Of a stretch of DNA of 64,000 nt, positions 1 to 36,655 are shown piece by piece. A program made the position numbers and the translations under genes. The number at the start of each line of letters is the position of its first letter. Within the stretch, counting starts at the first letter, position 1. The stretch lies in assembly GCA_030539055.1 (NCBI GenBank), contig JAUNSV010000003.1:1-64000 (forward strand), written 5' to 3'. The notes beneath the pieces are model-generated. The model was not told the origin of the DNA, searched no databases, and was given only the letters and a program-made list of their open reading frames with translations. Source of the DNA: Eubacteriales bacterium (lineage in GTDB: Bacteria; Bacillota; Clostridia; Lachnospirales; Lachnospiraceae).

Positions 1-736
1 GTTTTTAATTCAACTTAGTATCACATTAATTTTTATTATATTTTCAGTAGCTAAACTAACAAGCTTTATTTTGATTATTCCTATGTTCTTTATTTATATT
101 TTATTAGATAAAAGAAATCCTTTTGAAAAAATCAAACTTCTTTTTATACTAGGAGTATGCTTATTGGGATTGTTTGTATTATTAAATATGATTAGAAGTA
201 ATTTTACTCTTAGTATATTAGATAATATTTTATATTTAAGACATTATTTGTGTTCTGGTATGATTGTTTTTGTGGAATGGGTGGAGCAGGGATTTGAACA
301 TACAAATGGTATATATACTTTTAGGTTCCCTTTGGTTGTGCTAAATAAATTATTCCATACAAATTTTGATACATTGTGGATATCTGATGACTATATTAAA
401 AATGTGAATATAGATTGGGATTTGGGTAATGTCTGGACATTTTATCATGGTTTTGTACAAGATTTTGGTTTATGGTTTGGATTATTTATGAGTGCTTTTA
501 TAGGATCGATACATGGGCTTTTATATAATTTAACATACAAATATAAAAATCTATTCTTTTTAGTATTATATACTCAACTAATGTTTCCATTATTAACCCA
601 ATTTTTTTCAGAGCATTATTTTTCACATATAAGTTTGTATGTACAAGTTATTATTATACTATTTCTTTTTACTAACACAAAATTATTATATATAAATAAT
701 GAAGTATTATCAAATGATCAATCAAAAAGTAAATAG
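1..736 (+). CDS. Wzy-like oligosaccharide repeat-unit polymerase (3' part)
   Basis: The frame is open from the first bases of the window and stops with TAG at 734-736, so this is the C-terminal part of a longer gene that starts outside. The roughly 244 visible residues are very hydrophobic, with several predicted membrane helices and a larger loop containing an aromatic stretch near WDLGNVWTFYHGFVQDFG. That layout (late helices, a periplasm-side loop with F/Y/W-rich motif, then more helices) fits O-antigen or capsule polymerases of the Wzy class, which join lipid-linked repeat units in the membrane. The glycosyltransferases that follow support this. Wzy proteins are poorly conserved, so the call rests on topology and context. 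It could be another polytopic polysaccharide membrane protein. Confidence 0.6.
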   Translation, partial: FLIQLSITLIFIIFSVAKLTSFILIIPMFFIYILLDKRNPFEKIKLLFILGVCLLGLFVLLNMIRSNFTLSILDNILYLRHYLCSGMIVFVEWVEQGFEHTNGIYTFRFPLVVLNKLFHTNFDTLWISDDYIKNVNIDWDLGNVWTFYHGFVQDFGLWFGLFMSAFIGSIHGLLYNLTYKYKNLFFLVLYTQLMFPLLTQFFSEHYFSHISLYVQVIIILFLFTNTKLLYINNEVLSNDQSKSK

Positions 737-807: not shown

Positions 808-1704
808 TTGATTTCTATAGCACTTGCCACATATAATGGTGAAAAATATATAAAAAAACAATTATTATCTATTATTAATCAATCGATTAAACCACAAGAG
901 ATTGTAATTTGTGATGATTTGTCCACAGATGATACTATTAAAATAATAAATGAAATTAAAAATAAATATAAAAATATTTCATTTAATATTATTGTAAATA
1001 ATGAAAAACTTGGATTTTGTGATAATTTTCTTAAAGCAATTTTTTTATGTAAGGGAGATTATATTTTCTTATCAGACCAAGATGATGTATTTCATAAAAA
1101 CAAAATAGAGTTAATGTATAATGAATTAATTAATAATAATAAAATTAAATTATTATACTCAAATAATTATTTTATAGATAAAAATGATAAAATAATATTA
1201 AAAAATTTAAGTAAAAGTGAAAACACTTTATATTATTATGAAAATAATGAAACAATCAAAAAGGAAGAATTAAAAAAAGCATATAATCTTAAAAAATTTA
1301 CAGACATAAATTTTTTTATCAAATATAATACAAATAATTTAATAAATATTAATTTTAAGAGATTTTTAAAATCGGTTGCATTTTCTGGCAACACTTTTGC
1401 TTTTAAAAGAGAGTTGTTAAATGATATTTTATTACTAAAAGAAAAAAATATTAAATTTAATTATCACGATTTATTATTATCATATTTAGCACAAAGAAAA
1501 AATGGATTATATTTTTATAATAAAAAAATAACATATTATAGAATGCACGGAGATAACACAATAGGAGTAAACGAAGTGAATGATAAAAAGAAAGTTGATA
1601 GAGTAATGTGGCTTCAAAATATTATAAATATTCAAAAAGAATTATTATTGTATGAACAAAATATAGATAAAATAAATAGGGGGGGGGGTGCATACAAACA
1701 TTAA
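808..1704 (+). CDS. Family 2 glycosyltransferase, probably phase-variable, truncated form
   Basis: 298 residues as read. The N-terminal GT-A fold is clear: ISIALATYNGEKYI at the start, the nucleotide-binding acid in VICDDLSTDDT, and the DXD-like FLSDQDD near residue 92. It resembles rhamnosyltransferase-like GT2 enzymes that add sugars to capsule or O-antigen repeat units at the inner face of the membrane. The start is TTG at 808 with AAGGA about 7 bases upstream, and the first codons match the family start. The protein ends just after a run of ten G at 1679-1688. With nine G the frame would continue for 55 codons to TAA at 1853-1855, giving 348 residues and a lysine-rich helical tail usual for the family. 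The form shown is therefore probably an off or altered state, unless the tract length is a sequencing error. Confidence 0.85.
   Translation: MISIALATYNGEKYIKKQLLSIINQSIKPQEIVICDDLSTDDTIKIINEIKNKYKNISFNIIVNNEKLGFCDNFLKAIFLCKGDYIFLSDQDDVFHKNKIELMYNELINNNKIKLLYSNNYFIDKNDKIILKNLSKSENTLYYYENNETIKKEELKKAYNLKKFTDINFFIKYNTNNLININFKRFLKSVAFSGNTFAFKRELLNDILLLKEKNIKFNYHDLLLSYLAQRKNGLYFYNKKITYYRMHGDNTIGVNEVNDKKKVDRVMWLQNIINIQKELLLYEQNIDKINRGGGAYKH
1679..1688 (+). repeat. Poly-G tract (10 G) in glycosyltransferase coding region
   Basis: Ten consecutive G in a region that is otherwise about four-fifths A+T, with no comparable G or C run elsewhere in the window. Located inside the glycosyltransferase frame so that a change of one base alters the C-terminus. 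Tracts of this size are known contingency loci in several bacteria. Whether this one varies in the population cannot be seen here. Confidence 0.95.
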
Positions 1705-1855
1705 ATATATGAATAGCTTGATTAATTTTAATAAATATAGATTAAAACAATTAAAAGAAAAAAATATTATCAAATCACTATTCAATATATTTAAGATAAA
1801 ATATTATACAAGCTTTAAATCATTTTTAGGAGATTTGATATATACTTTAAAATAA
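1688..1855 (+). other. Alternative 3' coding tail of the glycosyltransferase (opened by -1 G)
   Basis: Reading from the last G of the tract (GTG CAT ACA...) the frame is open for 55 codons and ends with TAA at 1853-1855. It encodes a basic, helical segment (begins VHTNIKYMNSLINFN) typical of the C-terminal end of family 2 transferases. In the sequence as given it is out of frame with the upstream gene. Its intact coding character is the main argument that the short version is not the only product. Confidence 0.7.
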
Positions 1856-1882: not shown

Positions 1883-2905
1883 ATGGAAAAATTACTTACT
1901 ATAAGCGTAGCAGCATATAATGTTGAGAAGTACATTGGTAGAGCATTAGATAGTTATATTAATACTTGCGTTTTAGATTATTTAGATATAATAGTAGTAA
2001 ATGATGGATCAGATGATAATACAAAAAAAATAGTGGAAGAGTATGAAAGAAAATACCCAAACTCAATACGACTTATTAATCAAGAGAATAATGGGCATGG
2101 CTCTACAATTAATAAAAGTATACAATTAGCAAAAGGTTTATATTATAAAATAGTAGATAGCGATGACACAATTGATAAAATAGGATTAGAAAAATTAATT
2201 AGTTTTATAAAAAATAATAGAAATATTGATATAATTATTAATCCATTTAATTATTATGATTTTAAAACTAACAATTTAATAAGTATTAAATACCCATTTG
2301 TAGATATAAAGAGTGTTATATTTAATAAAGAACAAAAATTTGATGAATTAAATATTAATGATATTAATATTCACTCCATAACTACAAGAACTGACATATT
2401 AAAACAAAAAAAAGAGAAAATTGATGAGAATTGCTTCTATGTAGATGTGGAATATGTTATTTTTCAATTAAAATATATAAAAAATTGTATTAGTTTTGAT
2501 TATCCTATTTATAATTATTATATTGGAGATACAAATCAATCTATAAATATTGAGAATTTAATAAAAAGAAGAGAAATGCATAAAAAAGTATTATTTAGGC
2601 TTGTTAATTATTATAATGAAAATTTTAATGATTTTAGCGAAAAAACTAAAGACATAATAAAAAATAGAATAGGATATTTTATGTATCATCAATACAAAAT
2701 ATATTTAAGTATGGGAAAACCTAAGGAAGAATTAATTAAATTCGATGAAGAGCTAAAATTTAAAAATATTGACTTATATCGTGGGAATGATTCAATTGTT
2801 ATGAAAATTATTAGACTTAATAGATTAAGTGGTTATAAATTTATAAATTTATTTATGAAAATTTTTAAAATTTATGAAGAAAGTGTAATTAGAAATAATA
2901 ATTAA
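1883..2905 (+). CDS. Family 2 glycosyltransferase
   Basis: 340 residues. GT-A fold: LTISVAAYNVEKYI at the start, DIIVVNDGSDDNTKKI for nucleotide-sugar binding, and YYKIVDSDDTID as the metal-binding acid motif near residue 93. It probably adds one sugar of the capsule or cell-wall polysaccharide unit at the cytoplasmic membrane. No clear Shine-Dalgarno site precedes the ATG at 1883. The stop of the long (nine-G) form of the upstream glycosyltransferase is only 27 bases away, so translation here might be coupled to that frame. The acceptor and donor sugars cannot be told from sequence. Confidence 0.88.
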   Translation: MEKLLTISVAAYNVEKYIGRALDSYINTCVLDYLDIIVVNDGSDDNTKKIVEEYERKYPNSIRLINQENNGHGSTINKSIQLAKGLYYKIVDSDDTIDKIGLEKLISFIKNNRNIDIIINPFNYYDFKTNNLISIKYPFVDIKSVIFNKEQKFDELNINDINIHSITTRTDILKQKKEKIDENCFYVDVEYVIFQLKYIKNCISFDYPIYNYYIGDTNQSINIENLIKRREMHKKVLFRLVNYYNENFNDFSEKTKDIIKNRIGYFMYHQYKIYLSMGKPKEELIKFDEELKFKNIDLYRGNDSIVMKIIRLNRLSGYKFINLFMKIFKIYEESVIRNNN

Positions 2906-5657: not shown

Positions 5658-6698
5658 ATGGATTTATTCAATGAAAAAGTGCTTCTTATTACAGGAGGCA
5701 CAGGGTCATTTGGTAATGTAGTATTAAATAAATTTATAAATACGAATATAAAAGAAATAAGAATTTTTTCAAGAGATGAAAAAAAGCAAGATGATATGAG
5801 ACATGAGTATCAAGCTAAATACAATAAAGCATCTGAAAAAATCAAATTTTTTATAGGTGATGTGAGAGATGAAAGCTCTTTAAAAAATGCATTATATGGT
5901 GTGGACTATATTTTTCATGCTGCAGCTTTGAAGCAAGTTCCATCTTGTGAATTTTTTCCTATAGAAGCTGTAAAAACAAATGTGTTTGGCACAGAAAATA
6001 TGCTTAATGAGGCTATAAGTGCTGGAGTAAAAAATATTGTTTGTCTTTCTACAGATAAAGCTGCTTACCCTGTAAATGCTATGGGAACATCAAAAGCAAT
6101 GATGGAAAAAGTAATAGTAGCAAAATCTAGAACAGTAAAAGAGGATAAGACAAAAATATGTTGCACTCGCTATGGGAATGTAATGTGTTCGAGAGGATCT
6201 GTTATCCCTCTTTGGATAGACCAAATAAAAAATAATTTGCCTATTACTATTACTGAAAAAAACATGACTAGATTCATAATGTCTTTGGAAGAAGCTGTAG
6301 ACTTAGTACTTTTTGCTTTTACAAATGGAATATCTGGCGATATATTAGTTCAAAAAGCACCTGCTTGTACCATAGAAACATTGGCAAGGGCTGTGTGTGA
6401 ATTATTTCATGCAAAAGACAGTATCAAAGTTATAGGAATACGACATGGAGAGAAAATGTATGAAACTCTTCTAACAAACGAAGAGTGTGCAAACGCTATA
6501 GATTTAGGCACTTATTACAGAGTTCCATGTGATAAAAGAGATTTAAATTATGATAAATATATTAAAGAGGGAAATACAAAAAGAAGTACATTAAGTGAAT
6601 TTAATTCAAATAACACTAATATGCTAAATATTGAAGAAGTAAAACATAAATTGCTTAAATTAACATTTATTCAAGAAGAATTACAAAAGGTAAAATAA
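5658..6698 (+). CDS. capE: UDP-GlcNAc 4,6-dehydratase/5-epimerase, CapE/FnlA type
   Basis: 346 residues, an extended short-chain dehydrogenase. The Rossmann motif TGGTGSFGN is at residues 13-21, then FHAAALKQVP, and the family segment LSTDKAAYPVNAMGTSKAMM. CapE begins UDP-N-acetyl-L-fucosamine synthesis by oxidising C4, removing water at C5-C6 and inverting C5 of UDP-GlcNAc in the cytoplasm. The length fits (about 340). Note that the position of the usual YxxxK carries Met (MGTSK), as is typical of the CapE/FlaA1 class. It is followed directly, with no gap, by capF and then capG. This exact trio is the main reason for choosing CapE over a PglF or PseB role. Confidence 0.9.
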   Translation: MDLFNEKVLLITGGTGSFGNVVLNKFINTNIKEIRIFSRDEKKQDDMRHEYQAKYNKASEKIKFFIGDVRDESSLKNALYGVDYIFHAAALKQVPSCEFFPIEAVKTNVFGTENMLNEAISAGVKNIVCLSTDKAAYPVNAMGTSKAMMEKVIVAKSRTVKEDKTKICCTRYGNVMCSRGSVIPLWIDQIKNNLPITITEKNMTRFIMSLEEAVDLVLFAFTNGISGDILVQKAPACTIETLARAVCELFHAKDSIKVIGIRHGEKMYETLLTNEECANAIDLGTYYRVPCDKRDLNYDKYIKEGNTKRSTLSEFNSNNTNMLNIEEVKHKLLKLTFIQEELQKVK

Positions 6699-7898
6699 AT
6701 GAATATTTTAATAACTGGAGCTAGTGGTTTTGTAGGTAAAAACTTATCATTAGCTCTTTTAGAAATTAAAAAGCATAATGACAGAACGCACCCATCTTTA
6801 TTAGAAAAGATAGACAATATTTTTTTATATAATAAAAATTCTACAAATGAAGAATTAGAAGAATATTGTAAATCTTGTGATTTTGTTTTTCATTTGGCTG
6901 GAGTAAATAGACCAAAAAATGATGAAGAATTTAATGAGGGCAATGTAGATTTTACAAATAAATTATTATCTATTTTAAAAAAGTATAAAAACAATTGCCC
7001 AATAATGCTTTCATCATCAATACAAGCTAAATTAGATGGTGTACATTCTGAATATGGGAAATCCAAACTCAAAGCAGAAGAATCATTATTATCATATGAA
7101 AAAGAAACAAAAGCAAATATTTATATTTATCGTTTTCACAATATATTTGGTAAATGGTGCAAACCAAATTATAATTCTTGCATAGCAACTTGGTGCTATA
7201 ATATTGCTAGAGATTTGCAAGTAGAAGTAAGCGCTAGAAATAATAAAATATCATTAATATATATAGATGATGTAATAGAAGAAATGATAAATTTATTAGA
7301 AAAAAACGTGGATAAGAATAATAATGTATATGAAAAAAGCCATATATATTATATATCAAAAGTATATGAAAAAACACTTGGAGAAATTATAGATTTAATA
7401 TATATATATGCAAACCAAGCAAAAAATTTGTTTTTGCCAAAAATACCTATAGGTTCATTTGAAACAAAATTATATTCTACATATTTATCATATTTACCAA
7501 AAGAAAAAATAAGAGTACCACTACTTATGAAAGAGAATGAAAAAGGTTCTTTTACAGAATTGATGAAAACAAATGACCACGGTCAATTTTCTGTAAATGT
7601 ATCACTACCAAATATGAAAAAGGGCGAACACTTTCATAATTCAAAATGGGAATATTTTATAGTAGTAAGTGGAAGAGCATTGATTAAAGAAAGAAAAATG
7701 GGGCTAGATGAAAATGGCAAAAAATATCCAATAATAGAATTTGAAGTATCATCAGATAAAATAGAAGCAATTCATATGTTACCAGGGTATTCTCACGCTA
7801 TAATAAATTTATCAAACACAGAAAAATTAGTAACTATAATGTGGAGCAATGAAGTATTTAATCCGATGAAGCCAGATACATTTAATGAGGATGTATAA
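6699..7898 (+). CDS. capF: UDP-2-acetamido-2,6-dideoxy-hexulose reductase, CapF/FnlB type
   Basis: 399 residues in two parts. Residues 1 to about 270 form a short-chain reductase with the NADPH motif TGASGFVGKNL. Residues from about 275 are a cupin with MKKGEHFHNSKWEYFIVVSG, whose histidines bind zinc in CapF of Staphylococcus. The enzyme epimerises C3 and reduces C4 of the CapE product. The ATG follows the capE stop after one base, and AAAAGG inside the capE end is the likely ribosome binding site. Slightly longer than the staphylococcal protein (about 369), mostly in the middle of the reductase domain. Confidence 0.92.
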   Translation: MNILITGASGFVGKNLSLALLEIKKHNDRTHPSLLEKIDNIFLYNKNSTNEELEEYCKSCDFVFHLAGVNRPKNDEEFNEGNVDFTNKLLSILKKYKNNCPIMLSSSIQAKLDGVHSEYGKSKLKAEESLLSYEKETKANIYIYRFHNIFGKWCKPNYNSCIATWCYNIARDLQVEVSARNNKISLIYIDDVIEEMINLLEKNVDKNNNVYEKSHIYYISKVYEKTLGEIIDLIYIYANQAKNLFLPKIPIGSFETKLYSTYLSYLPKEKIRVPLLMKENEKGSFTELMKTNDHGQFSVNVSLPNMKKGEHFHNSKWEYFIVVSGRALIKERKMGLDENGKKYPIIEFEVSSDKIEAIHMLPGYSHAIINLSNTEKLVTIMWSNEVFNPMKPDTFNEDV

Positions 7899-7919
7899 AA
7901 ATAAAGGAGAAAATGATTT

Positions 7920-9077
7920 ATGTCATTTCAAAATAATGGTAAATTAAAATTATTAATTATAGTAGGCACTCGACCAGAAATTATTAGACTTAGTGAAATA
8001 ATAAAAAAATGCAAAAAATATTTTGATACAATACTGGCACATACAGGTCAAAATTATGATTATAATCTTAATCAAATATTTTTTGAAGATTTAAATTTAG
8101 AGAATCCAGATGTTTATATGGAAGCAGCAAGCGATAGCCTTGGAGACACTATAGGAAATATAATAAAAAAATCTTATGAGCTAATGCTTGACATCAAACC
8201 AGATGCTCTCCTTGTACTAGGAGATACAAATTCATGCCTTTCTACTATAGCAGCAAAAAGATTACACATACCAATATTTCATATGGAAGCAGGAAACAGA
8301 TGCAAGGATGAATGCTTGCCAGAGGAAACAAATAGAAGAATAGTTGATATTATATCAGATGTAAATATGGCTTATTCAGAGCATGCAAGAAAATATTTAC
8401 ATGAATGTGGTTTACCAAAGGAGAGAGTGTATGTAGTTGGGTCTCCTATGGCAGAGGTTTTAAATAATAATTTTGAGAGTATTATTAATTCAAAAATATT
8501 AACTCAATTAAAATTAACAAAAAAGAAATACATTTTACTTTCTGCTCACAGAGAAGAAAATATAGATAAAGATGAAAATTTTCACTCTTTATTTAATGCT
8601 ATTAATTCTTTATCAAAAAAATATGATATGCCTGTTTTATATTCGTGTCATCCTCGTTCAAGAAAAAAATTAGAAGAAATGAATTTCAAATTAGATGATA
8701 GAGTTATTATGCATGTACCTCTTTCATTCTCAGATTATAATAATCTTCAAATGAATTCATTTTGTACTGTATCTGATTCTGGAACCTTGCCAGAGGAGAG
8801 TAGTTTTTTCTTAAGTAAAAAATTACCTTTTTCGGCTGTTTGTATTAGAACATCTACAGAGAGACCAGAAGCACTGGATAAAGGAGTTTTTGCTTTAGCT
8901 GGAATAGATGAAAATAGTTTATTAAATGCTATACACCTTACTACTTCTTTATATAATGACAAATGCTTTGGTTCTGTGGTACCAGATTATATTGATGAGA
9001 ATGTTTCTACAAGAGTAATTAATATTATTCAAAGCTATACCAATATAGTAAATAGAGTTGTTTGGAAAAAATATTAA
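7920..9077 (+). CDS. capG: UDP-N-acetyl-L-fucosamine synthase, non-hydrolysing C2 epimerase (CapG/FnlC; WecB-like)
   Basis: 385 residues, the usual length. It belongs to the WecB fold: LIIVGTRPEIIRLS at the start, HMEAGNRC, a catalytic-region segment PEETNRRIVDIISD, LLSAHREEN, and DSGTLPEESSFF. After CapE and CapF, CapG inverts C2 to give UDP-L-FucNAc, the donor for capsule and O-antigen glycosyltransferases. On its own the family also includes UDP-GlcNAc 2-epimerase (UDP-ManNAc formation), so the CapG call depends on the operon. Confidence 0.9.
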   Translation: MSFQNNGKLKLLIIVGTRPEIIRLSEIIKKCKKYFDTILAHTGQNYDYNLNQIFFEDLNLENPDVYMEAASDSLGDTIGNIIKKSYELMLDIKPDALLVLGDTNSCLSTIAAKRLHIPIFHMEAGNRCKDECLPEETNRRIVDIISDVNMAYSEHARKYLHECGLPKERVYVVGSPMAEVLNNNFESIINSKILTQLKLTKKKYILLSAHREENIDKDENFHSLFNAINSLSKKYDMPVLYSCHPRSRKKLEEMNFKLDDRVIMHVPLSFSDYNNLQMNSFCTVSDSGTLPEESSFFLSKKLPFSAVCIRTSTERPEALDKGVFALAGIDENSLLNAIHLTTSLYNDKCFGSVVPDYIDENVSTRVINIIQSYTNIVNRVVWKKY

Positions 9078-30440: not shown

Positions 30441-32306
30441 ATGAGATATTTAGGGAATAAAGAATCTATACTCACAGAGATAGAAGCTGTGTTATCAAAA
30501 AACAATCTGATTGATAAAAGGCTAACATTCTTTGATGCTTTTTGTGGTTCGGGCTCTGTATCAAATTATTTTAAGAAACATTATGACTTAATAATAAATG
30601 ATAATCTTAAGTGGTCCGTGATATATACAAGAGGGAGAATATGTGCTTCGCAGTGTTCCTTCAAGAAACTAGGATTTGATCCATTTGTTTTTTTTAATAC
30701 AAATCAAGAGACAGAGCGTGGGTTTATATATAAGACATATGCACCAACTGAAACAAGTCGTATGTATTTTACTCCGGAAAATGCATCGCGGATTGATTAC
30801 TTTAGAAAGACTATTCAAGAATGGTGGCAAAAAGAGAGAATTTCGCAAGATGAGTATTGTTACCTTTTGGCTTGTTTAATTGAGTCTGTATCTGATGTAT
30901 CTAATACAGCGGGTGTGTATGGAGCTTTTCTAAAAAAGTGGGACTCTAGAGCAACTAAAAAAATAATTTTTAGTAAGGTTGACTCTTTGATGTGTACACC
31001 GAAATCATTAAAAATGTATAATGGGAAAATAGAAGAAATTATAAACGAAGTTGATTGTGATATTCTTTATATGGATCCTCCTTATACCCAAAATCAATAC
31101 GGAACACAATACCATCTACTTGAAACACTAATATTGGATGATTCACCAGAAGTGAGTAAAATTACAGGTTCACGTAAAACTGCGCAGATGAGATCAGATT
31201 GGTCAAAAGAGTATAAGTCCAACATTTTGTTCGATAGTGTTTTAGCGAAAACGAAAGCCAAATACGTTATTTTGAGTTATAATAATGATGGATTTATGTC
31301 TAAGGACTTTATTGAAGCAGTTATGAAGAGATATGGAAAACCAGAAACGTATTCCTGTAAAAAGATTGCCTATAAAAAATATCAAAATTGGAAATCAAAT
31401 AATCAGGATGAACATTATGAATACTTATTCTTCGTTGAGATGAAGGAAAAGAATAAAATAGTCTACGAATCTCCATTGAATTATATAGGCAGCAAGGCTA
31501 AGATTGTGACGGATATTAAGTCATTTATTCCAGCTGATGTTGATGTTTTTTTTGATTTGTTTGGCGGTGGATTTAATGTTGGGGTTAATGCAAATGCAGA
31601 TAAAATTACTTATAATGATATTAATCATTTTGTGAAGGAAATAGTAGAAGCATTGGCAAAGTACGAGGTATATGATTTCCTTCTGTATAGCAAGAAGATA
31701 ATCAAGCAGTATGGTCTTAAGGCCGCTGATGCAGAAGCATATAATAATGCAAGAGCATTTTATAATTCATTACCCACAGAAAAGAAGGATCCACGTTTTC
31801 TATTTACACTGATTATGTATGGTTATCAGCAACAAATACGTTTTAACGGAAAACACGAATTTAATAATCCTGTTGGTATGAGATGGCTGAATGATAAAGT
31901 ACTTGAGAAAATGATAAGTTTTTCACGATATTGTAAAGAAAAACAGTGTATTTTTATGAGTGAGAATTATCTGGAACTTGAAGATAAAATCTCTGCAAAT
32001 GATTTTGTTTATCTTGATCCCCCATATCAATTGACTACAGGAGCTTATAATGATGGAAAGAGAGGATTCGATGGCTGGAATGCAGAATTAGAAAACACTT
32101 TGTTTGAATTTGCCTATCGTCTGAATAAAAAGAATATTCCATTTATGCTGTCATATGTTGCTGAGCATAAAGGAGTAGTAAATAAGAATTTATTGAATTG
32201 GGTTAAAGAAAACAAATACCATATTATTGAATTAGGAGACATATTAGGAATATCTGGGAGTCGCAGAAAGGAAGTGTTGGTGGTAAACTATGAAATTTCA
32301 AAATAA
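30441..32306 (+). CDS. Fused two-domain D12-class adenine DNA methyltransferase (FokI-like)
   Basis: 621 residues made of two complete N6-adenine methyltransferase domains. First: MRYLGNKESIL, SAM motif FDAFCGSGSVS (residues 31-41) and catalytic DPPY (212-215). Second, from about residue 340: LNYIGSKAKIVTDI, SAM motif DLFGGGFNVG (from 372) and DPPY (526-529). This arrangement is known from M.FokI and relatives, where each half methylates one strand of an asymmetric type IIS site. All key residues are present, so it is probably active. It overlaps the broken endonuclease gene by 17 bases. GC content is clearly above the flanking core genes, a sign of transfer. The recognition sequence cannot be predicted by reading. 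Confidence 0.92.
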   Translation: MRYLGNKESILTEIEAVLSKNNLIDKRLTFFDAFCGSGSVSNYFKKHYDLIINDNLKWSVIYTRGRICASQCSFKKLGFDPFVFFNTNQETERGFIYKTYAPTETSRMYFTPENASRIDYFRKTIQEWWQKERISQDEYCYLLACLIESVSDVSNTAGVYGAFLKKWDSRATKKIIFSKVDSLMCTPKSLKMYNGKIEEIINEVDCDILYMDPPYTQNQYGTQYHLLETLILDDSPEVSKITGSRKTAQMRSDWSKEYKSNILFDSVLAKTKAKYVILSYNNDGFMSKDFIEAVMKRYGKPETYSCKKIAYKKYQNWKSNNQDEHYEYLFFVEMKEKNKIVYESPLNYIGSKAKIVTDIKSFIPADVDVFFDLFGGGFNVGVNANADKITYNDINHFVKEIVEALAKYEVYDFLLYSKKIIKQYGLKAADAEAYNNARAFYNSLPTEKKDPRFLFTLIMYGYQQQIRFNGKHEFNNPVGMRWLNDKVLEKMISFSRYCKEKQCIFMSENYLELEDKISANDFVYLDPPYQLTTGAYNDGKRGFDGWNAELENTLFEFAYRLNKKNIPFMLSYVAEHKGVVNKNLLNWVKENKYHIIELGDILGISGSRRKEVLVVNYEISK

Positions 32307-34259: not shown

Positions 34260-35141
34260 ATGGCAGTAAAAGGACAAACAATAACTCTTTTTCTTATGGA
34301 TGAGGATGTAAGCGGTCGTATTAAATGCACTATCGCTGGGTGGACTGGCGTTGTTTACAAAATACCTCGTAAGGATTTAGATAGCTGCAAAGACCGTTCT
34401 CACCTCAAACAGAGCGGTGTGTACTTTTTGTTTGGTAACAATGACCAGACAGATGAAAAAGTTATCTATATTGGACAGGCTGGTGCAAGAAAAAATGGTG
34501 AAGGTCTTCTGAACCGCCTTCAAGAGCATAAAAGAAATCCAGAGAAAGATTACTGGACTGAGGCGGTAGCCATAACAACCACTGATGACACTTTTGGTGC
34601 CACAGAGATAAGCTACCTTGAGAATCGTTTCCGTAATCTTGCATTGGAAGCCAACCGTTACGTTGTAAAGAATGGAAATGACCCGTCACAGGGACATATT
34701 TCCGAAGAGAAGGAAAGCGAGCTGGAAAAATTCATTTCCTATGTGAAGGTAGTTCTCGGAACCTTGGGTTATAAGGCATTTGTTCCAGTGGATGAGAATA
34801 AGGAAAAACAGCAGAAGATAGAAGAGACAGGTGAGGAGGAACCACTTCTGTTTCTGAAAACGACCAAGGCATCTGCCACCGGAAGAACTACCAGTGATGG
34901 ATTTGTCGTTTTGAAAAACAGTTCATTGGCGTTAAATCCAACGAAGAGCTGTCCGAAACCAATCAAGGTGCTACGTGAGAAGTATGCAGATAGAGTTGAT
35001 TCTAAGGGAATGCTGCTGGAAGATACACTTTTCAGCAGTCCTTCAGCGGCAGCAGGATTTGTTACATATGCAAGTGCCAATGGGCTGATTATGTGGACAA
35101 ATGAGACTGGAAAAACTTTGAAGGATGTGGAGTCGGAATAA
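34260..35141 (+). CDS. GIY-YIG nuclease domain protein with C-terminal DUF4357
   Basis: 293 residues. From residue 53, SGVYFLFG and VIYIGQAG form the GIY-YIG core, followed by LLNRLQEHKR and the metal-binding Glu region EISYLENRF. The C-terminal 85 residues (SATGRTTSDGFVVLKNSSLA onward) fit DUF4357. Proteins of this type are small predicted endonucleases, often near restriction or other defence genes; their targets are unknown. AGAAGAGG before the ATG. Higher GC than the core genes and in frame with no damage, unlike its upstream neighbours. Confidence 0.88.
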   Translation: MAVKGQTITLFLMDEDVSGRIKCTIAGWTGVVYKIPRKDLDSCKDRSHLKQSGVYFLFGNNDQTDEKVIYIGQAGARKNGEGLLNRLQEHKRNPEKDYWTEAVAITTTDDTFGATEISYLENRFRNLALEANRYVVKNGNDPSQGHISEEKESELEKFISYVKVVLGTLGYKAFVPVDENKEKQQKIEETGEEEPLLFLKTTKASATGRTTSDGFVVLKNSSLALNPTKSCPKPIKVLREKYADRVDSKGMLLEDTLFSSPSAAAGFVTYASANGLIMWTNETGKTLKDVESE

Positions 35142-35302
35142 AACGGAGACTGCAAAAATGAACTCTTGCAAAAAATGCAACAGTTCGCTGTGAGTAAAAT
35201 TAGCCACAGGACAGATAATAGTATAATATAGAAAGCGTGCGCAGTGCGTTCGTTTTGAGTAAATAAGGCACTTCGCATTGCGGAGAGAGAGGAGGCTCTG
35301 AC

Positions 35303-36655
35303 ATGGCAGAAAGTCAAAATATAGAATGGAAAGAGTCGTGGCGTGACGAATATCTGAAATGGATATGTGGCTTTGCCAACGCACAAGGCGGTAAGATATA
35401 TATTGGAACACGGGATGACGGAACGGTCATTGGAGTGAAAAACTCCAAAAAATTGCTGGAAGACATTCCGAACAAAATTCAAAACAAGCTGGGCATTGTA
35501 GCGGATGTGAATTTGCTGAATGAGAATGGTCTTGATTACATTGAAATTGTAGTTAATCCGTGGTCTTTCCCAGTGAATTATGATGGCGAGTATCATTATA
35601 GAAGTGGCAGCACAAAGCAGCTGCTGCGTGGAAATGCACTAACCAATTTTCTGATGGCAAAGACTGGTTTGAAATGGGATGCAGCGACGATTTCTAATAT
35701 CGGAATCTATGACTTGGACAAGGAGAGTTTCGACATTTTTAGAAGAGAAGCACTGCGAAGTGGTCGAATGACAAAGGAAGATTTGGATATTCCAAACGCA
35801 GAATTGTTAGAGAAACTGGACTTAGTGGTGGACGGCAATTTAAAGCGTGCTGGTGCATTATGCTTTTACCGGGAACCGGAAAAAGTTATCGGTGGTTGCT
35901 ATGTGAAAATTGGAAAATTTGAAGGAAGCGAATTGCTGTATCAGGATGAGATACACGGTTCTTTGCTTATCATGGCAGACCGAGTAATTGACTTGATTTA
36001 TTTGAAGTACCTGAAAGCAGCGATTACTTACCATAAGGAAACACGAGTGGAAACTTATCCCTTTGCCCGTGATGCTGTTAGAGAGGCAGTTTTTAACGCA
36101 TTGATTCATTGCAATTGGGCAGACAATGTTCCGGTGCAGATTCGTATTGAGGATGATGCCATGTTTGTCAGCAACTGCAGTATGCTGCCGTTTGGATGGA
36201 CAGCAGAGACGCTTTTGGGTTCTCATGCATCCAAGCCGTACAATCCAGATATTGCGCGGGTGTTCTATCGTGCCGGATATATTGAAAGCTGGGGACGTGG
36301 TATCCAGAAGATTCGAGATGCCTGCAAAAATCTGGGCAGCGAAGACCCGGAGTACATCGTCCACGGCGAAGATATCATGGTGAAGTTCTCTGCGCTCCAA
36401 AGTGCCAAAGTACCAGATTCCAAAACACCAAACCGACATGATGGCGGTTTAGATGTCGGTTTGGGTGACGGTTTGGAAAAAGAAATCATAAGAATGGTTT
36501 CAGAAAATCCCAAACTAACGATGGCAGAGATTGCAGAGAAGCTGAATGTTACGAAGCGTACTATTGAGCGTATAGTTAAAGGCTTGCGTGAAAAAGGTGT
36601 TATAGAACGCAAGGGCGGCAAGCGATACGGATATTGGGAAGTTCATGAAGGTTGA
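35303..36655 (+). CDS. ATP-binding protein with AlbA_2 (Schlafen-like) DNA-binding domain and C-terminal winged helix
   Basis: 450 residues. Residues 1-110: AlbA_2 domain (NIEWKESWRDEYLKWICGFA, GGKIYIGTRDDGTVIGV). Residues about 255-350: GHKL-type ATPase-like region HATPase_c_4 (DAVREAVFNALIHCNWADNV, YIESWGRGIQKIRDA). Residues 395-450: winged helix (NPKLTMAEIAEKLNVTKRTI). Such proteins are labelled transcriptional regulators or ATP-dependent helicase-like, but few have been tested; some occur in defence islands. AGAGGAGG lies upstream. A TATAAT-like -10 is at about 35222. Coding composition is distinctly GC-richer than the core. Confidence 0.88.
   Translation: MAESQNIEWKESWRDEYLKWICGFANAQGGKIYIGTRDDGTVIGVKNSKKLLEDIPNKIQNKLGIVADVNLLNENGLDYIEIVVNPWSFPVNYDGEYHYRSGSTKQLLRGNALTNFLMAKTGLKWDAATISNIGIYDLDKESFDIFRREALRSGRMTKEDLDIPNAELLEKLDLVVDGNLKRAGALCFYREPEKVIGGCYVKIGKFEGSELLYQDEIHGSLLIMADRVIDLIYLKYLKAAITYHKETRVETYPFARDAVREAVFNALIHCNWADNVPVQIRIEDDAMFVSNCSMLPFGWTAETLLGSHASKPYNPDIARVFYRAGYIESWGRGIQKIRDACKNLGSEDPEYIVHGEDIMVKFSALQSAKVPDSKTPNRHDGGLDVGLGDGLEKEIIRMVSENPKLTMAEIAEKLNVTKRTIERIVKGLREKGVIERKGGKRYGYWEVHEG

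Follow-up and report, generated by a model that had tools for sequence, protein, structure and literature searches.

Can the length of a single run of guanines decide how a capsule glycosyltransferase ends? The question is raised by the left end of a 64,000-nucleotide stretch of Lachnospiraceae-like DNA (the window), which runs from the first base of contig C75 in an assembly of 1.51 Mb (83 contigs, 99% complete). Ten consecutive G residues occupy positions 1679..1688 of the plus strand, which is the coding strand of a GT2 glycosyltransferase gene, about 83% of the way from its start codon to the stop of a tail encoded in another frame. The best-studied cases of homopolymer phase variation are those of Campylobacter, Helicobacter and Neisseria. 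We consider it probable that this G10 tract is a contingency locus, at which slipped-strand phase variation would alter the C-terminus of the GT2 enzyme.

A G10 tract in a polysaccharide locus

The first-pass annotation had described the tract as the only ten-G run of the window, and this is borne out by our counts. Every other G or C run in the window is shorter than six residues, the next-longest G runs have five, and the plus strand otherwise holds 32 runs of four and two of five. The G+C content falls from 29.4% over the whole window to about 21% near the tract. Across the whole assembly there are four G runs of at least seven, namely one G7, two G9 and the one G10. The three runs of at least nine in 1.51 Mb compare with 0.29, 0.11 and 0.02 expected under Markov models of order 1, 2 and 3, respectively, which were trained on the window minus the tract and applied to 1.51 Mb and both strands. 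A dinucleotide-shuffle control of the window is weaker, as the shuffled letters include the tract's own G's; here, GGGGGGG words occurred 0.62 times on average, and one shuffle in 100 contained as many as the tract's four. A chance G run is ruled out by the Markov expectation together with the lack of window runs of six to nine and of any G8 in the genome. The tract length is far above chance for this genome, as is characteristic of homopolymeric (SSR) phase-variable contingency loci.

The left end of the window is a polysaccharide locus, and a GT2 gene in such a locus belongs to the gene class typical of contingency loci. Upstream on the plus strand lies an oligosaccharide repeat-unit polymerase gene (71..736), of which only the 3' part is present (TIGR04370 positions 193-396 of 396), the contig starting together with the window. 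The next gene downstream encodes a second GT2 glycosyltransferase (1883..2905, plus strand), identified from its open reading frame and family match; it begins 27 nt after the tail stop and 178 nt after the short-form stop. A membrane acyltransferase (PF01757; 4542..5585) and three nucleotide-sugar genes matching Polysacc_synt_2, Epimerase plus Polysacc_synt_C, and Epimerase_2 (5658..9077) follow on the same strand, the latter three resembling what we take to be the UDP-L-FucNAc pathway. The locus also includes a CmpB-like membrane protein. No DNA similar to the locus was found in plasmid or phage collections, and the exact 32-base flank of the tract had no match in viral_contigs.

Further along the window, ribosomal proteins L2, S3 and L6, SecY and RpoA are encoded between 14.4 and 27.2 kb. 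A phage origin of the 13.4-27.2 kb stretch was rejected: none of the six proteins tested had a PHROG match, and the stretch is a ribosomal-protein cluster. Beyond it, a large protein with a D12-class N6-adenine DNA methyltransferase domain is encoded at 30441-32306, near PHROG-matching genes at 34260-36655; these may perhaps form a mobile island.

Two reading frames encode consecutive parts of one protein family

The gene that carries the tract (808..1704, plus strand) starts with TTG, seven bases after the end of a GAAAAGG motif, stops with TAA at 1702-1704, and encodes a short form of 298 residues. Its membership of GT2 follows from the profile match (PF00535, E 1.1e-22, 81.2 bits against a cut-off of 23.3), the GT-A fold and a conserved acidic motif, D90 Q91 D92 D93, which is invariant in A1. 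The tract begins after codon 290, and the 290-codon piece that precedes it is GT2, with chondroitin and heparosan synthases, SpsA and TarS as its sequence relatives in the PDB. One of the genome's 14 PF00535 matches carries such a tract.

The short form does stop just after the tract, as had been annotated. The distance, originally given as eight codons, is four sense codons when those situated entirely beyond the tract are counted; the figure of eight is reached by starting at the codon that holds the first G. In another frame, a tail-coding segment spans 54 codons (1691..1852, plus strand, with its stop at 1853-1855), close to the 55 that had been claimed, and its product is homologous to the helices found at the C-terminus in relatives. 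The earlier description of this segment as a plausible GT2 tail is supported by its own score. Taken alone, it scores 21.6 bits against positions 273-328, the C-terminal end, of a 330-position profile made from 54 relatives, whereas the maximum among 1000 shuffles was 7.2. The piece before the tract ends at profile position 262, and the tail piece is collinear with it and lies at the expected place; the two are therefore consecutive parts of one protein family. With such homologous pieces flanking it in different frames, the tract decides the product by its length, as at contingency loci. The profile was built from only those open reading frames of 280-360 aa, a selection that favours tailed relatives, and their number, 54, is therefore no frequency. 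A multiple alignment was uninformative for the tail, with the C-termini of relatives apparently pushed onto the piece before the tract (median 7.5 residues beyond).

In the structure model of the short form (mean pLDDT 82.7), a GT-A fold is predicted with its strands kept to residue 245, and residues 132-150 and 163-174 are poorly predicted. The best Foldseek match of the GT2 was to TarS (E 7.4e-14). Judging from this model, the GT-A fold looks complete in the short form. By alignment, the counterpart of the tail in the relative L042 spans residues 257-305, and in the model of that protein the region forms three helices behind the GT-A fold (block pLDDT 89-97). As far as the models indicate, this late tract would leave the main domain intact, as in C-terminal phase variation of the Helicobacter canadensis type.

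Poly-G tracts elsewhere in the genome and the genus

All three G runs of at least nine in the assembly lie in sugar-enzyme genes with the G on the coding strand; in two of them the frame is shifted and in one it is open. More specifically, the tract on contig C6 is a G9 in a WbcJ/CapF-like reductase gene whose frame is shifted after the tract. The first part of this gene matches positions 2-187 of 372 of NF047837, a UDP-2-acetamido-2,6-beta-L-arabino-hexul-4-ose reductase model, scoring 167 bits where the whole-protein cut-off is 500. The piece downstream of the tract is a 103-codon open segment that is collinear with 24 family relatives at a weak score (4.2 bits, reached by 6 of 1000 shuffles). 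Its comparison with the CapF-like protein of the window was not significant (21.2 bits, with shuffles up to 27.7), nor was that with a sub-segment of the same protein (18.5 bits). The genome holds two such CapF/WbcJ-like genes, 40-44% alike in their first halves, of which the copy in the window (6699-7898) is one open frame and the C6 copy (L177:908-1797) has the G9.

The third tract, a G9 on contig C77, lies inside the gene of a 297-residue GT-D glycosyltransferase (PF08759, E 1.4e-38), and the frame is open through it. The best NCBIfam match of this protein, TIGR03728, falls below that model's cut-off. Its neighbours, named by reading the open reading frames, are sugar acetyltransferase-like and aminotransferase-like genes. 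A GT-D match was found in 4 of 101 genomes of the family, the present genome included.

G runs of at least nine occur in all 13 genomes of the genus, giving 41 tracts after overlapping matches were merged. At the family level they were found in 55 of 81 genomes, including larger ones and some with a higher G+C content. We classed the genus tracts by the open frames on their G strand, requiring at least 60 codons before and at least 50 after the tract, or at least 100 after it only. Long frames were found on both sides of 13 tracts, only after 10, only before one, and on neither side of 17; not every tract therefore fits the class. Among the 13 tracts with frames on both sides, eight are shifted and five open, where random lengths would give about 4.3 open.

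Several genus tracts lie in or before genes other than those of sugar enzymes. Three hsdS genes carry a tract between their two Methylase_S specificity domains, with shifted frames at L142:2661-3769 (minus strand) and L175:2871-4152 (plus strand) and an open frame at L145:3002-4105 (minus strand). They belong to three sister species: in G012 a G9 leaves the frame shifted, in G001 a G10 leaves it open, and in G004 a G10 leaves it shifted. The hsdS genes of G012 and G001 are related, being 71% alike in their second halves and 40% alike in their first, and differ in tract length and frame. Family matches further place tracts at an N6 methylase (L162), DUF6273 proteins (L153, L154, L158), choline-binding repeat proteins (L146, L149, where the G run is near a contig end), a PAPS-reductase-like protein (L160) and a short-chain dehydrogenase (L170). 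No family match at E 0.1 was obtained for L156, L163, L165 and L167, and L141, L151, L161 and L164 gave weak ones only. That the genus has tracts in gene classes regarded as classical for contingency loci, in a near-random mix of frames, and that all three tracts of the assembly fall in sugar-enzyme genes, lends strong indirect support to phase variation.

Three genes of the sister genome G009 (L163:3760-3960 and, on the minus strand, L164:3380-3580 and L165:3342-3542) appear to be paralogues with similar signal-peptide-like starts. Their runs, G9, G9 or G10, are located about 9 to 11 bases before the ATG, which is the ribosome-binding position, and two of the genes have an upstream element in common with L166. 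These tracts are possibly a translational switch, and those at L164 and L165, which were counted among the 13 with frames on both sides, may belong to 5' leaders rather than to coding sequence. By eye, the tracts without long frames at L144, L155, L157, L159 and L176 sit in G/C-rich, repeat-like sequence within AT-rich surroundings, perhaps a small mobile repeat.

All 13 genus genomes have MutS and MutL matches, so that loss of mismatch repair is rejected as a cause of tract instability. In the present genome, mutS is split over two contig ends (L214:4739 and L215:1), and by comparison with G002 about 48 residues are unaccounted for between the pieces. In our reading, the assembly has a gap at this point and the gene itself is not broken. 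The C8 contig end at mutS resembles a short fold-back that contains a long A/T run.

Alternative explanations

An error in the tract length of one assembly, with the gene intact and no switch, is unlikely in our judgement, and could affect any single tract. The locus is known from one assembly of 83 contigs, and according to the available portion of PMC9187656, annotated G-tract lengths can depart from the real distribution. Furthermore, a contig end is found 1.4-1.7 kb away from each of the three tracts of this genome, and no more than 350 bases away from 13 of the 41 in the genus (L146, L149 (two), L151, L152, L153, L158, L159, L161, L163:85, L171, L172 and L173). The latter could stem from a mix of tract lengths, from variation between strains or from artefacts of poly-G reads. 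However, a length error would leave unexplained why a G10 is present here at all, why three runs of at least nine fall in sugar-enzyme genes, and why the hsdS junction tracts of sister species stand in different frames.

A fixed frameshift in a decaying gene, with the short form being either a pseudogene or a settled shorter enzyme, would also fit a GT-A fold that looks complete, and is more improbable still once the homologues are considered. We compared 94 homologous open reading frames, one per locus from 99 loci (L015-L113, five of which yielded none); the 80 named loci are the best 80 of 298, and the 94 include one exact duplicate (L015 within L042). The duplicate reflects identical DNA in the family member G021 and in a record named uncultured Lachnospiraceae bacterium RUG11200, and it is on this basis that we write Lachnospiraceae-like. 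Among the 94, 55 have the tail region, six are intermediate and 33 end earlier. These 33, which agree with a tailless enzyme, end before profile position 262, and 31 of them are outside the closest 40. By contrast, the tail is kept in 10 of the 10, 20 of the 20, 29 of the 30 and 36 of the 40 closest relatives. The first-pass annotation had made its proposal depend on where the homologues end, and the close ones do not end with the short form: 29 of the closest 30 reach profile position 289 of 330 or beyond. The tail segment itself, moreover, can still be recognised as coding by homology from end to end, against what a decaying gene would suggest.

The comparison with the other 12 genus genomes found no orthologue of the GT2, the best matches there having E values of about 1e-11. 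As a separate observation, one relative (L100:3001-3696, Lachnospiraceae bacterium C10) has an in-frame G8 near its 3' end, and it is the only one of the 94 homologous open reading frames with a G or C run longer than six when 60 bases before and 200 bases after each frame are included.

Slippage of the polymerase or the ribosome on the G run, yielding both protein forms from unchanged DNA, has equally little to recommend it: both products are encoded here and homopolymer runs are known slippage sites, but the spread of tract lengths and frames across the genus genes is a prediction of change at the DNA level, whereas programmed slippage would be expected to keep the length constant.

A probable C-terminal switch and its relation to known systems

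Under the preferred reading, a contingency locus acting on the GT2 C-terminus, slipped-strand mispairing during replication would add or remove G units, and the resulting tract length would set the frame downstream. In the sequenced state, the enzyme would end just past the tract, keeping the GT-A catalytic fold and missing the C-terminal helices; in the alternative state, the tail would be added. A population would then probably hold cells in which one capsule glycosyltransferase differs in its activity, in the partners it binds or in its position at the membrane, and these differences could lead to different surface sugars. We infer the slippage, its reversibility and its effect on the sugar, and likewise we infer, with the first-pass annotation, that the organism switches the decoration of its surface polysaccharide. 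As the GT-A fold looks complete in the short-form model, the original wording of on/off switching may be too simple, and C-terminal switching is the most likely reading. It is also possible that the short form lowers expression of the next glycosyltransferase gene, because the untranslated gap before that gene would be 178 nt with the short form and 27 nt with the long one.

A wider reading, which we put forward tentatively and hold to be less likely than its opposite, is that a whole genus of Lachnospiraceae-like bacteria with small genomes, in which MutS and MutL genes are retained, shares poly-G switches as a common type at three levels. These would be the C-terminus or middle of sugar enzymes, the junction between hsdS specificity domains (a phasevarion), and the ribosome-binding position of one species' paralogous secreted-protein genes. 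The switch in the window would then toggle a basic helical tail between two working enzyme forms.

Poly-G/C tracts of Campylobacter are often found in surface-sugar genes of AT-rich small genomes, and the three tracts of this genome are fewer than in Campylobacter. The tract described here is, like the contingency loci of that group, an intragenic G/C homopolymer, to judge from the available text of PMC8355987. Change of tract length is an established mechanism of phase-variable loci in the accessible parts of PMC2823697, PMC7394358 and PMC9187656. The first of these, as far as its available text goes, treats late tracts that alter only the C-terminus as a class of their own in H. canadensis, which includes the sugar epimerase/dehydratase gene rfbB. 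The window tract fits this class (PMC2823697, in the portion available), sharing a poly-G run of at least ten residues close to the 3' end of the coding region, with alternative C-termini that are here encoded in the DNA. It differs in that the alternative tail is a homologous 54-codon segment, longer than all but one in Table 2 of the available part of PMC2823697. The host here is, moreover, Lachnospiraceae-like, and the switch is deduced from one sequenced tract length.

The sister-species hsdS loci (L142, L145 and L175), rather than the window, resemble the poly-G switch of NgoAV hsdS in Neisseria gonorrhoeae as presented in the available part of PMC7394358: they have G9 or G10 between the specificity domains in both shifted and open frames, a likeness at the sequence level. 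The pilus switch of Bifidobacterium breve, in the accessible text of PMC9187656, likewise involves a gut commensal whose surface genes change frame at a G tract, for which replication slippage is argued. That system, unlike the present one, concerns pilin genes and has the support of Maximum Depth Sequencing (PMC9187656, same portion). Among the literature matches listed, as far as their available text extends, we recognised no description of poly-G phase variation in Lachnospiraceae or in this genus. This would be a known kind of switch in a new host group, as far as the literature searches show.

If the genus-wide set of candidate poly-G contingency loci in these Clostridia-type bacteria is real, clonal populations would be mixed with respect to surface sugar and, probably, DNA methylation. 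Genes with such tracts may get annotated as broken while they are merely in one phase. Such mixtures would bear on phage sensitivity, on antibody binding and on the tracking of strains in metagenomes.
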